From Microbacterium commune (GTDB lineage: Bacteria > Actinomycetota > Actinomycetes > Actinomycetales > Microbacteriaceae): a stretch of DNA of 64,000 bases. Below, piece by piece: positions 10,371-51,574 of this stretch. Position 1 is the stretch's first letter. Each line of letters begins with the position of its first letter. The stretch is from NCBI RefSeq assembly GCF_014836945.1, contig NZ_JACSPX010000001.1:1449510-1513509 (forward strand), read 5' to 3'. The translations under genes and the position numbers were made by a program. The notes under the pieces are model-generated. The model worked only from the letters and a program-made list of their open reading frames with translations, did not search any database and was not told where the DNA came from.

Positions 10371-10489
10371 CCCGACCGTCGCGGTCTGCGCATCCCCGTT
10401 CGGGGTTGCCGGTTCAGCACAAGAGGATCGTTGCGCTCCTGTCAGCAAGTCGCGTGCGCGTCGCTCGCGCGGTTTGGCAGACTGGACGC

Positions 10490-10942
10490 ATGGTGACCCT
10501 GCTGCTGGATCAGACGCGACTTGAGATCGTGCTCTCGCCGATCGAGCGGGCCTCGACCTTCCACCGCCAGAACGTGCGGGTCGAGCGCGAGCACATCACC
10601 AAGGTGCAGCTGACTCAGGATGCCTGGACCTGGCTCCGCGGTGTGCCGGGACCCGGCACGTACATCCCGGGCGTCCTCGCCGCCGGCACGTGGAAGGCCG
10701 CCGAGACCACCGACTTCGTGCTGATCCGGCGCAGAAAGCCCAGCGTCGTGATCGACCTCGAAGGCGACGCGCAGTTCCAGAGGCTCATCCTCACCACCCG
10801 GCACGGGCTCGCGCTGACCCAGGCTCTCCGGCTCGAGGTCAGCGACCAGCCCGAGGATGTCGTCGACATCGCGACCGGCTCGGTGCCGGTGCAGAAGCAG
10901 CGCCCGCGTCCGGTCATCCGTCCGCGACCGCGCACCGTCTGA
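10490..10942 (+). CDS. Conserved hypothetical protein, possible PH-like fold
   Basis: This 150-residue protein has no signal peptide or membrane segment. It is rich in beta-prone stretches (LEIVLSPIERASTFHRQNVR, VVIDLEGDAQFQRLILTT) with a conserved-looking RGVPGPGTYIPGVLAAGTW centre and a basic Pro/Arg tail. Alternating strands with a GT..PG turn recall small bacterial PH-like domains, but this is only an impression. The ATG at 10490 is preceded by CAGACT and six bases, as at chdC. It converges on the acidic-tailed ABC ATPase. No function is assigned. Confidence 0.7.
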   Translation: MVTLLLDQTRLEIVLSPIERASTFHRQNVRVEREHITKVQLTQDAWTWLRGVPGPGTYIPGVLAAGTWKAAETTDFVLIRRRKPSVVIDLEGDAQFQRLILTTRHGLALTQALRLEVSDQPEDVVDIATGSVPVQKQRPRPVIRPRPRTV

Positions 10943-11010
10943 CCGAAGCGGCGTGTGCCGCGCCCGCCGACCGTGAGATCTCCGACCGTGCGGGGCGACG
11001 CAGCGAGTCG

Positions 11011-13239
11011 TCAGCGCTCCTGGTGGCCCTGGTCGCCGTCGTTGGAAGCGGGGTCGGTGCTCGGGTCTACGTCAGAGCCCTCTGTCGCGGCATCGGCATC
11101 CGCCTCAGCAGACTCCTCGCGGCGCTGGGCACGCGAGCTGTACGGGTAGTCGGGAGCCGGGCCGTCGAAGAAGCGGCTGGCCGCGGCCGACAGCGAAGTG
11201 CGCATGGCGGCGAGCCGCGGGTCGTCGTCGCCGTCGTCGACCGTGTCATCGTCATCGTCGCCCGAGAGCGAGGGTGTCACGATCGAGATGGCCTCGGTCG
11301 CGGGAGCCGCGTTCTCGGACCCTTCGGTGGTGACCGACGCGGGCAGGCCCGTGATCAGCTCGGTGAAGGTCGGCTCGACGGATGCTGACGGCAGCGTCAC
11401 CGCCTCGGTCGCGAGCGGCAGGATGAGCGGCCGCGTCTCGTCCGAGTGAGTGGTCTCGTCGTCGGCGACAGTGTCGTCCGCGTCGGTGCCGTCAGTGCCG
11501 GCGTCGATGTCGGCGTCGTCGGCTGCGGCTGCGTCTGAATCCGTGTCTGCGTCGGCGCCGTCGGTCTCGGTGCTGGTGGCGGCACCTGCGTCTGTGGCGT
11601 CTTCCGCGCCGGTGCCAGCGCCTGAAGCGGACTCGTCGACGTGGTCGCGGGTGGCATCCTCGTCCGCCGCCGACGAGGCGTCTGCCTCGACATCGGTCGC
11701 CGTCGCGGCGTCCAGGTCGGTCGCCGTCGCGGCGTCCAGGTCGGTCGTCTGCGCGGCATCGGCGTCCGCGTCCGTGTCCGTGTCCGAGTCCGTATCGGCA
11801 TCCGAGCCCATGTCGGCGTCGTCCACCGCGCCCGAGTCGGCGTCCGCGCCCGCGTCGGCCTGGGTGTCCGCGTCGGCATCCGCGTCCGAGTCAGCGGCCT
11901 CGGCCTCGGCGTCGGCGTCGGCCGCGGCGTCGGCCTCCGGGCCGGAATCCGCGTCCGTGTCGGCATCCGCGCCCGAGTCGGGATCGGTGCCGGAGTCCTC
12001 CGACACGGCCTCATCCGCGTCATCCGCGTCATCCGTGTCGGCTGGGGCCGCCCCGTATCCGGCACCGGCTGCTGCGACGGCGCCGCCATCGGCGACGAGA
12101 GCGGCCGCGCCCGAGAACGGCATGCCGCCCGCGACGAGGGCCGCGTCGGCAGCGCCGGCGTCCCCGGTGTCGGCGTGCTCCGCAGCAGCGTCGGCATCCG
12201 CGGCATCCGTCTCGGCCGGGGCGGCCGGGGCGGCCGGGGCGTCGGGAGCGGTGCCCGGCGCAGCGTCGGCAGCGGCGGTCGCATTCACCGGATCCGACGC
12301 GTGCGCCACCCGGTTCGCGGAGGTGTCGAGGCGCGGGCTGTCGGCGCGGCGGCCGTAGACGAGGTCGAGGAAGACCTCCTCGAGGCTGGGGCCGCGCTGC
12401 TGCAGCATGGTCAGCGCGACACCGGCTTCGGCGGCGACGGCGCCGACGGCGGCCGAGTCAGAATCGCGCACGGTGACGCCCGAGCGCAGCACGTCGAAGT
12501 CGAGCTTCGCAGCCGACAGCGCGGTGATCAGGGGTGCGCGGTTCTCGGCATCCACCACGACCGCGCCGCCCGAGGCATCCGCGAGCTCCGAGATCGGACC
12601 GGCGTGCACCGCACGGCCCTTCGAGAGCACGACGACGTCGTCGGCGACCTGCTCGATCTCACTCAGCACGTGAGACGAGACAAGCACGGTGCGACCCTCA
12701 TCCGCCAGGCGGCGCATCAGCAGACGCATCCATCGGATGCCCTCGGGGTCGAGTCCGTTGGCCGGCTCATCGAGCACGAGCACGCCCGGGTCGCCGAGCA
12801 GCGCCGACGCGACGGCGAGACGCTGCCGCATACCCAGTGAATAGCTGCCGAGGCGGGTGTCGCCGTCGTCCTGCAGGCCGACCAGGTGCAGCACCTCGGC
12901 GACCCGAGCGGACGGGATGCCGTTCGCCTTGGCGGCGAGCATCAGCTGGCGACTCGCGGTGCGGCGAGGGCGGTACGCCGACTCCTCGAGGACGGCGCCG
13001 ATGGTGCGCAGCGGGTGCCGCAGGTCGGAGTAGCTTGCACCGCCGATGGTCGCGGTGCCCGAGGTCGGACGGATCTGGCCGAGCAGGATGCGCAGCGACG
13101 TGGTCTTCCCTGCGCCGTTCGGCCCGAGGAATCCGGTGACAGCGCCCGGCTCGACGCGGACGGAGAGGTCGGAAACGGCGGTCACCGCGCCGAAGCGCTT
13201 TGTGACCTGGGTGAACTCGAGCACCTGTCCTTCGGGCAT
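11011..13239 (-). CDS. ABC transporter ATP-binding protein with a very long acidic Ala/Asp/Thr/Ser tail
   Basis: This is a 742-residue protein. Residues 1-300 are a standard ABC ATPase: Walker A GPNGAGKTT (39-47), signature YSLGMRQR (133-140), Walker B VLVLDEPANGLDP (153-165) and His190. It is like the drug- or bacteriocin-export ATPases that pair with a separate permease. From about residue 305 to the end the chain is low complexity, dominated by Asp, Ala, Thr, Ser and Glu, with runs such as ADTDSDTDTDADADAA. A short ordered-looking piece (RLAAMRTSLSAAASRFFDG) lies near the end. The ATG at 13239 has AGGAGAGG upstream. No permease gene is adjacent. The tail roughly doubles the usual length of this family. 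Confidence 0.85.
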   Translation of the reverse strand: MPEGQVLEFTQVTKRFGAVTAVSDLSVRVEPGAVTGFLGPNGAGKTTSLRILLGQIRPTSGTATIGGASYSDLRHPLRTIGAVLEESAYRPRRTASRQLMLAAKANGIPSARVAEVLHLVGLQDDGDTRLGSYSLGMRQRLAVASALLGDPGVLVLDEPANGLDPEGIRWMRLLMRRLADEGRTVLVSSHVLSEIEQVADDVVVLSKGRAVHAGPISELADASGGAVVVDAENRAPLITALSAAKLDFDVLRSGVTVRDSDSAAVGAVAAEAGVALTMLQQRGPSLEEVFLDLVYGRRADSPRLDTSANRVAHASDPVNATAAADAAPGTAPDAPAAPAAPAETDAADADAAAEHADTGDAGAADAALVAGGMPFSGAAALVADGGAVAAAGAGYGAAPADTDDADDADEAVSEDSGTDPDSGADADTDADSGPEADAAADADAEAEAADSDADADADTQADAGADADSGAVDDADMGSDADTDSDTDTDADADAAQTTDLDAATATDLDAATATDVEADASSAADEDATRDHVDESASGAGTGAEDATDAGAATSTETDGADADTDSDAAAADDADIDAGTDGTDADDTVADDETTHSDETRPLILPLATEAVTLPSASVEPTFTELITGLPASVTTEGSENAAPATEAISIVTPSLSGDDDDDTVDDGDDDPRLAAMRTSLSAAASRFFDGPAPDYPYSSRAQRREESAEADADAATEGSDVDPSTDPASNDGDQGHQER

Positions 13240-13330: not shown

Positions 13331-13370
13331 CGCAGATCGGGGCAGATAGGAGCAGATCGGAGCAGATCGG
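13331..13370 (+). repeat. Four tandem 10-bp units upstream of the acyl-CoA hydrolase gene
   Basis: Four near-identical decamers of the form AGCAGATCGG lie head to tail between two divergent genes, ending 22 bases before the GTG at 13393. A repeat period close to one helical turn would place each unit on the same DNA face, which suits cooperative protein binding. They could also be a slippage product. Confidence 0.75.
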
Positions 13371-13392: not shown

Positions 13393-14451
13393 GTGACCGA
13401 CACCGAAGCCGCCACCGTCCTCGTTCGCACCGACAGCTCGCTCGGACGCATCACGCTCAATCGTCCCCGCGCGATCAACGCACTGGATCTCGGGATGATC
13501 GAGCAGATCACCGCAGCGCTCACCGCATGGGTCGACGACACCGACGTGCAGACCGTCCTGATCGACGGTGCCGGCGATCGAGGCCTCTGCGCGGGCGGCG
13601 ACGTGCGTGCCCTGTACGACTCGATCACCGCGGGCCATCCCGATCACATCGCGGAGTTCTTCCGCGCCGAGTACGCGATGAACGCGTTGATCGCCGAGTA
13701 CCCCAAGCCCATTGTCGTCTTCGCAGACGGCATCACGATGGGCGGTGGCATCGGCCTCGCCGGCCACGCCGCCGTGCGCATCGTGACAGAGCGCTCGCGT
13801 CTGGCGATGCCCGAGACGCGCATCGGCTTCACTCCCGACGTCGGCGGCACCTGGCTGCTCGGCCGGGCGCCGGGTCGGCTGGGCGAGTACTTCGGCCTCA
13901 CGGGTCAGAGCATGAGCGCGGCGGATGCCCTGTATCTGGGCTTCGCCGATCATCACGTGCCGTCCGAGAACCTCGACGGCCTGCGCGACGCGCTCGCCAC
14001 CCGCGCCGACCCGGGCACCCCGAACGAGCTGACCCTGCTGTTCGACGAGACGCCGGAGCCGTCGCAGCTGCCCGCCGCGCGGGTGTGGATCGACGAGGCG
14101 TTCTCGGCCGACACGGTGGGGGAGATCATGCAGCGGCTGCGCGAATCGGATGCTCAGGATGCCGCGACTGCGCTGGCGACGCTGGAGGAGCTCTCGCCCA
14201 CCGCCCTCGCCGTCACGCTCGATGCGGTGCGCGAGGCGCGGACGATGAGCGGCGTGCGGGAGGCGCTCGAGGGCGAGTACCGCCGGGTCATGTGGTTCGG
14301 ACACAGTCATCCCGACCTGGTCGAGGGCATCCGTGCTCAGCTGGTCGATAAGGACCGCAATCCGAAGTGGCAGCCCGCGACCGTCGCCGACCTGCCGCCG
14401 GATGCCGGTGCGCCGGCGCGCGCCTACGTGCCCGAGCCGGCGCTGTTCTGA
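13393..14451 (+). CDS. Enoyl-CoA hydratase/isomerase family protein, probable 3-hydroxyisobutyryl-CoA hydrolase
   Basis: This 352-residue crotonase-fold protein has the oxyanion-hole segments GLCAGGDVRALYD and GITMGGGIGLAGHA, and MPETRIGFTPDVGGTW with the catalytic Glu and Asp. The length and the PDVGGTW motif fit 3-hydroxyisobutyryl-CoA hydrolases (valine degradation) rather than short enoyl-CoA hydratases. The start is GTG at 13393 with TAGCCT seven bases before it and no Shine-Dalgarno sequence, so it may be leaderless. No other valine-pathway genes are adjacent, so the substrate is inferred from family resemblance only. Confidence 0.85.
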   Translation: MTDTEAATVLVRTDSSLGRITLNRPRAINALDLGMIEQITAALTAWVDDTDVQTVLIDGAGDRGLCAGGDVRALYDSITAGHPDHIAEFFRAEYAMNALIAEYPKPIVVFADGITMGGGIGLAGHAAVRIVTERSRLAMPETRIGFTPDVGGTWLLGRAPGRLGEYFGLTGQSMSAADALYLGFADHHVPSENLDGLRDALATRADPGTPNELTLLFDETPEPSQLPAARVWIDEAFSADTVGEIMQRLRESDAQDAATALATLEELSPTALAVTLDAVREARTMSGVREALEGEYRRVMWFGHSHPDLVEGIRAQLVDKDRNPKWQPATVADLPPDAGAPARAYVPEPALF

Positions 14452-50476: not shown

Positions 50477-51574
50477 TCAGTGGGAGAGGGAGAGGAGTCG
50501 GGCGGGGTTGTCGATCAGCATCCGCTCGACTGCCGCCTCGCCGATGAGGGCGGTGAGTCGCGGCAGGTAGCGGTCGCCGAGGTATCCCAGGCCCGGCATC
50601 CCGCCGTAGGAGATGTACCGGGTGCGGCGCGCGACGTCGCCGCCGAGCACGATCCGCTCGCCACCGCCCGCCTCGACCACGGATGCCGTGAGAGCCAGCA
50701 GCTCGGCATCCGAGCGCGTGCGGGGGCGGGCGAAGCCGTCGTAGCCCAGGTAGGCGCCGCGCTCCGACAGTGAGGCATGCAGCCCGGCATCCGGGTCGCG
50801 GTCAGCGTGCGCGAGCACGACGCGGTGCTCGGCGACGCCGGCAGCGGCGAGCAGATCGAGCACCTCGTGCGCTGCCGTGCAGAACTCCAGGTGCACCATC
50901 ACCGGGGCGCCGGTGGCACGATGCGCGATCGCGATGGCATCGAGCGTCGCACGCTCGAACGCACTGATCGACCAGTAGCCGATGCCGCCTTTCAGCATCC
51001 CGGCGTGCACGGGGGCGCCCTCGGCGGTGCGGGCGAGAGCGACGTCGGGGCGTTCGAAGGTCTGCGCGTCGTCGGCCGCCATACCCGTCTGCACCTCGGC
51101 GGTGAACAGCGCCGCCCGGCGCTCGACATCCCACACCTGCAGCGGGTGGTCGTCGCCGTAGTGCGCCTCTCGGTGCAGGCCGGTGGTCGCGACGACGGCG
51201 AGGCCGGTCGCGCCACTGATGCGCGCCACCGCCTCGGGGTCGCGCCCCAGGCCGAACGGCGTCGCGTCGACCATCGCGGCGAAGCCGCTGCGCTGCAGCA
51301 GCGTCGCCTCGGCGCGGGAGGCGCTCTCGTCGTCGAGCTCGTCACCGGGAAGAAGCGGGCTGACCTGGAACAGGTGCTCGTGGTAGTTCACCCGGCCGAG
51401 CGCCTCCGACGGGATGTCGCCGAGAACGGTGCGAACCGGACCGCCCGCAGAAACCGCACCGACAGCACCGCCCGCAGAAACCGCACCGACCGCACCGCCC
51501 GCAGAAACCGCACCGACAGCACCGCCCGCAGGAACCGCACTGCCCGCACCGACCGTGCCGCCCGGCCCCGGCAT
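50477..51574 (-). CDS. Phosphotriesterase-family (COG1735-like) lactonase
   Basis: This 365-residue metal-dependent hydrolase has VNYHEHLFQVSPLL (HxH), a bridging lysine in HAGMLKGGIGYW, His residues in PVMVHLEFCTAAHE and VVLAHADRDPD, and the last ligand Asp in IVLGGDVARRT. This is the PTE fold with its binuclear site. COG1735 relatives include lactonases acting on phosphorylated sugar lactones, which suits the kinase and dehydrogenases of the same operon. The first 45 residues are a Gly/Ala/Val repeat encoded by four 27-bp units. The ATG overlaps the upstream stop (TGATG). Confidence 0.85.
   Translation of the reverse strand: MPGPGGTVGAGSAVPAGGAVGAVSAGGAVGAVSAGGAVGAVSAGGPVRTVLGDIPSEALGRVNYHEHLFQVSPLLPGDELDDESASRAEATLLQRSGFAAMVDATPFGLGRDPEAVARISGATGLAVVATTGLHREAHYGDDHPLQVWDVERRAALFTAEVQTGMAADDAQTFERPDVALARTAEGAPVHAGMLKGGIGYWSISAFERATLDAIAIAHRATGAPVMVHLEFCTAAHEVLDLLAAAGVAEHRVVLAHADRDPDAGLHASLSERGAYLGYDGFARPRTRSDAELLALTASVVEAGGGERIVLGGDVARRTRYISYGGMPGLGYLGDRYLPRLTALIGEAAVERMLIDNPARLLSLSH
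51441..51548 (-). repeat. Four 27-bp tandem repeats coding the PTE-family N-terminus
   Basis: Units run 51441-51467, 51468-51494, 51495-51521 and 51522-51548. The first three differ by one base and the last by several. Each encodes nine residues of the VGAVSAGGA type. The length keeps the frame, so copy-number changes would lengthen or shorten the leader without breaking the enzyme. Confidence 0.9.

Follow-up and report, generated by a model that had tools for sequence, protein, structure and literature searches.

ABC proteins that do without a permease are known from the tandem-NBD ABC-E/F type and from repair or Fe-S ATPases. NosF, Rv1218c, and DrrA, nucleotide-binding domains (NBDs) of ABC-2-type exporters, act with a permease. 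MsmX, MsmK, and MsiK are NBDs of type I sugar importers that are encoded apart from any permease, have known NBD-less permeases as partners, and have no reported acidic tail (PMC7658222). In FtsZ, the linker is a tether that works within length and charge limits, and the terminal peptide docks partners (PMC9939409, PMC12747378). In the open-access literature, no paper was found on the 742-aa protein described here or on bacterial ABC NBDs with disordered acidic tails.

The window, a stretch of 64,000 nucleotides of Microbacterium commune (genome G000), encodes this protein on its minus strand. It was compared mainly with its closest relative, from Actinomycetales bacterium SN12 (L031 = G080; NBD 99% identical, tail of 425 residues), and with another close relative, L117 (NBD 96% identical, tail of 601 residues). 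The parts of the gene and its neighbors are as follows, in window coordinates.

11011..13239, minus strand: whole gene, ABC ATPase with acidic tail, 742 aa (ATG at 13239, TGA at 11011-11013)
12340..13239, minus strand: NBD, residues 1-300, including a C-terminal subdomain at 226-300 (PF00005, motifs, model, Foldseek)
12145..12339, minus strand: variable tail start, residues 301-365, diverged and gapped past residue 317 relative to the nearest relative
12037..12144, minus strand: Ala/Gly-rich, mildly hydrophobic island, residues 366-401 (comparison with L031)
11434..12036, minus strand: hypervariable acidic core, residues 402-602 (L031 comparison, tandem repeats, low pLDDT)
11092..11433, minus strand: conserved C-terminal island, residues 603-716 (L031 and L117 comparisons)
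11347..11373, minus strand: short motif PTFTELITG, residues 623-631 (FDDLLxG-like in relatives; helix at 625-630)
11140..11223, minus strand: helical motif DPRLAAMRTSLSAAASRFFDGPAPDYPY, residues 673-700 (alignment; helix at 674-690)
10943..11010, no strand: 68-bp gap at the position of the sister clade's permease, with no permease remnant (synteny with the 178-aa gene)
10406..10942, plus strand: 178-aa convergent protein, downstream synteny anchor (synteny; no Pfam family)
13393..14451, plus strand: divergent enoyl-CoA hydratase/isomerase-family gene, upstream synteny anchor (name from sequence, start inferred)

The sequence-only reading of this DNA had described an ABC ATPase with an intact frame, an ATPase domain ending near residue 300, and an acidic tail of roughly 440 residues, and all of this was borne out: the frame is uninterrupted from the ATG at 13239, a start common to the orthologues, to the TGA at 11011-11013; the NBD stops at about position 12340 with all ABC motifs intact; and the noted span, 11011 to 12330, corresponds to the tail (residues 301 to 742, 442 aa, pI 4.05). 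Third-position GC content was similar in tail and NBD (0.86 versus 0.88). The acidic-minus-basic excess of the tail was +0.24 per residue in the coding frame and between -0.37 and +0.02 in the other five frames of the same DNA, and after shuffling of the tail DNA (500 shuffles) it was -0.13 ± 0.02, with the frame still open in 0.2% of the shuffles. A chance open frame in GC-rich DNA was ruled out by these shuffles and by the constrained C-terminal island. The same reading had allowed for an assembly error in the repeats, or for orthologues ending near residue 310 with a frameshift in the window; both were discarded, since the tail is present in the independent assemblies of L031 and L117, at the lengths given above, and the orthologues do not stop at about residue 310 against a frameshift in the window.

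The NBD matched PF00005 with 97 bits (cutoff, 25) and contained a Walker A motif (GPNGAGKTT), a signature (SLGMRQR), a Walker B motif with the catalytic Glu (VLVLDEP), a D-loop, and an H-loop (SSH). By sequence it was closest to ABCA NBDs, NosF, and Rv1218c, and by fold (Foldseek) to TM_1403 and NosF, the latter part of the NosDFY transporter. With NosF, Rv1218c, TM_1403, and DrrA it has in common the fold, the motifs, and a subdomain C-terminal to the NBD, at 27 to 37% identity to ABC-2-type exporter NBDs in structural alignments. The protein scored below the cutoffs of the DrrA family (TIGR01188; 179.9 versus 312.45) and of DrrA1-3_C (PF13732; 13.1 versus 27.4), and unlike NosF, Rv1218c, and DrrA it is without a permease and adds the 442-residue acidic tail. 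Matches in PADLOC were taken as generic ATPase similarity, and a role as an anti-phage defense ATPase was set aside.

No permease gene adjoins the ATPase gene, as the sequence-only reading had noticed, and a similarity search detected no orthologous one elsewhere in genome G000, so that the ABC-2 exporter arrangement, a cognate permease encoded with the NBD, is lacking there. Among 149 Microbacterium species, an even sampling of the genus rather than a species tree, the NBD orthologue was present in 142 and the permease in 85; comparing the two lists gave 57 species with the NBD and no permease (including that of the window), 7 with neither, and none with the permease alone, counts obtained with one permease query (E ≤ 1e-8 or 1e-30) that a very diverged permease could escape. 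Because the ATPase is missing in 7 of the 149 species, it is dispensable. Three genomes with 56 to 60% NBD identity and no permease match (G050, G061, and G145) may be separate cases. We regard this clade-wide loss of the permease, with the ATPase kept, as the more informative finding; the earlier reading had caught just the absent neighbor.

The NBD gene of many Microbacterium species is followed at once by a gene for an ABC-2 permease, and the stop codon of the first often overlaps the start codon of the second. Among the 81 NBDs placed in a tree, the 25 permease-less sequences all fell in one branch (support, 100/99), which also holds five sequences cut by contig ends, and the permease-bearing ones formed the other. 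Since the permease-less genes make up a single fully supported clade, one loss of the permease, in the ancestor of the window's clade, is probable. The sister-clade pair is a direct orthologue at an identical locus with an acidic tail of like kind; there the permease gene overlaps or abuts the NBD stop codon, whereas the window's genome has none. The gene for the 178-aa convergent protein is kept across the genus and marks the downstream side of almost all informative loci: in the permease clade it comes after the permease, in the permease-less clade immediately after the NBD. The loss was therefore clean. In other families of the order, genomes carry the NBD-permease pair but no long tail, so in the simplest history, with its polarity set by three outgroup genomes, the pair would be ancestral, the tail would have been gained early in Microbacterium, and the permease would have been lost later. 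A Shine-Dalgarno-like site for the permease within the codons of the tail end was found in 30 of 47 genes of the permease clade versus 3 of 25 permease-less ones, which would explain the EGGxxR endings of the former. The genus offers a natural before-and-after comparison, with a transporter pair in one clade and the ATPase alone in its sister at the same locus, and it lets one ask what role an ABC ATPase has without its permease and which features are altered once coupling is lost.

The tail consists of 119 Ala (27%), 93 Asp (21%), 25 Glu, and 11 Arg among its residues, with no Lys and no Cys. Aligned with the SN12 gene, the NBD had 59 silent and 3 changing codons, the Ala/Gly-rich island (residues 366 to 401) had 13 and 5 (five changed residues, no gaps), the C-terminal island had 34 and 11 (no gaps), and the acidic core had 31 and 99 with 49 gap columns, all these counts coming from a single pair of close relatives and those of the core hanging on an uncertain alignment. 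Purifying selection on the NBD is strong, and because NBD and islands are constrained while the core changes, a hypervariable spacer separates constrained parts. From residue 600 on, 96 of 114 residues were identical to L117. Segments comparable to the Ala/Gly-rich island occur in many other tails; it is mildly hydrophobic (Kyte-Doolittle, 1.38), and a transmembrane helix in the tail was unsupported.

In an AlphaFold2 model (33 sequences) the NBD had pLDDT values mostly above 80, and the tail was disordered, with values mostly of 30 to 45. The small ordered-looking end piece suspected earlier corresponds to predicted helices at 625 to 630, within PTFTELITG, and at 674 to 690 (PRLAAMRTSLSAAASRF; pLDDT, 77 to 84), with a weaker one at 700 to 713; the model came without inter-domain error values, and we therefore draw no docking claim from it. 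The PTFTELITG or FDDLLxG-like motif occurs in 17 of 25 permease-less tails. Confident matches to the helical motif at 673 to 700 were confined to the orthologous gene of permease-less genomes, and a search with the C-terminal island gave no confident match beyond orthologues (best others, E of 0.001 to 0.006) and none in the PDB for the C-terminal motif. Part of the permease-less clade is without the helical island; the M. murale, M. aerolatum, and M. halophytorum relatives carry other motifs.

Across relatives the tails span 12 to about 1,584 residues and are attached at the same conserved place. The idea of a tail peculiar to this ATPase gene found no support, nor is the tail unique to one strain: it is genus-wide. 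Its acidic excess lay between 0.20 and 0.30 per residue in 25 of 25 complete permease-less tails, at lengths of 168 to 608. The tail is a hypervariable spacer that holds its charge density steady, at about -0.25 per residue, and is followed by a conserved, partly helical end island. As a bacterial disordered region it is a clean example of charge density being conserved while length and sequence are free to vary, beside a constrained motif. Tandem repeats of 6, 9, 18, and 24 bp occur in the tail, and the length differences among the window gene, L031, and L117 sit in its low-complexity, repeat-bearing part; with differences this large between near-identical strains, repeat expansion, one of the origins proposed beforehand, stands as the likely route of length change. 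Of the other suggestions, ion binding and phase separation gained no specific support, and the conserved C-terminal island agrees with a role in docking.

The VASTGVID motif of the sister clade is also present in part of the permease-less clade and absent from the window's own tail; as a docking tag common to several proteins it was rejected, all 12 genome matches within the genus lying in the ATPase gene. The longest tail, about 1,584 of 1,884 aa, belongs to the G065 orthologue (L111:742-6396); it carries two copies of a VAxTG motif and one FDDLLLG motif, and a permease lies about 5 kb past the NBD. In Microbacterium sp. NIBRBAC000506063 (L059, 6380-9058), the NBD, the tail, and part of the permease share a single open frame, which is either a sequencing error or a recent step of decay; the region between looks frameshifted, and an ATPase-permease fusion was not relied on.

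We propose, giving it an even chance of being right, that the protein is a permease-less ABC-2 ATPase, kept in its clade, that uses the tail and end island in the manner of FtsZ to reach a partner. An ABC-2-type exporter ATPase would have been left without its permease, in the simplest case by one loss in the clade ancestor, and have been retained since. The NBD very probably still works as an ATPase, because it is catalytically complete (its catalytic residues are 100% conserved in both clades) and is under strong purifying selection, and it would bind and hydrolyze ATP as a dimer. The acidic core would serve as a flexible, self-repelling spacer. The helical island at the C terminus would be a docking site that links the ATPase cycle to the partner, as in FtsZ; candidates for the partner are a different protein, some other permease working in trans, or the permease-binding groove of the NBD itself, now left vacant. 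The likeness to FtsZ is one of layout only, a nucleotide-hydrolyzing core, a variable linker, and a conserved docking end (PMC9939409, PMC12747378), since its fold is unrelated to that of ABC ATPases and its linkers are far shorter than the window tail; the corresponding elements found here are a conserved core, a hypervariable disordered linker, and a conserved terminal motif. Weighing against the proposal are the part of the permease-less clade that is without the helical island, the seven species without the ATPase, and the small number of clade-diagnostic changes in the presumed permease groove. A more specific version, possible but held tentatively, makes the protein a stand-alone soluble ATP-driven switch or assembly factor in which tail and terminal motif replace the permease as the coupling element; if true, this would be a further route to permease-free ABC proteins.

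Like MsmX, MsmK, and MsiK, the NBD is encoded apart from any permease, and it might, as MsmX and MsmK do, energize one or more other permeases in trans, the tail helping to find them. We consider this somewhat doubtful. Orphan NBDs serving several importers are a precedent (PMC7658222) and the NBD is intact throughout the clade, but the precedents are type I importers, not ABC-2 exporters, and no NBD-less permease is evident as its partner. Six more ABC-2 permeases were detected in the genome and each adjoins an NBD, which weakens such a role; in the families searched, the only members without an adjacent NBD were three YhgE/Pip proteins, whose ABC-2-like membrane parts and lack of an NBD of their own speak for it. 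To our knowledge, there is no evidence that YhgE/Pip proteins require an NBD. Two of the three are encoded in tandem (L119:402-5668; G000:C1:1180300-1186300) and the third lies at C1:788900-791600.

The repeats, the quick length change, the unalignable core, and the spread of tail lengths from 12 to about 1,584 residues would also suit a tail that is mostly neutral GC-rich repeat expansion, with nothing of importance beyond the NBD and, perhaps, the final 100 residues; this is unlikely given an acidic excess held at 0.20 to 0.30 in every complete permease-less tail versus -0.13 in shuffled DNA, tails almost without Lys and with no Cys, a frame open everywhere, and a constrained C-terminal island. 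Less likely still, in our view, is an intramolecular switch in which the tail or C-terminal helix docks on the groove vacated by the permease and regulates ATP hydrolysis. The clade-diagnostic substitutions H90R and G92R, with Y102A and A106N close by, bring positive charge to a region of the NBD that, going by general ABC structures, we take to face the permease, hinting that this surface is reused, and binding of the FtsZ tail to the FtsZ core has been reported (PMC12747378); yet just 4 of 32 positions in the presumed groove are diagnostic, the groove itself is assigned from general structural knowledge, and the predicted model, reported with no inter-domain errors, gives no sign of contact between tail and core.

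Three repeat arrays were seen elsewhere in the window. A 10-bp direct repeat (GCAGATCGGA, 3.9 copies) at 13332-13370, in the short intergenic region between the ATPase gene and the divergent hydratase gene, is possibly regulatory. A 27-bp array of 4.3 copies at 51435-51555 lies in an open frame with AVSAGGAVG units on the minus strand, and a 9-bp array of 8.9 copies at 2538-2622 translates into Gly-Gly-Thr repeats from the minus strand or into Pro-Pro-Val repeats from the plus strand.
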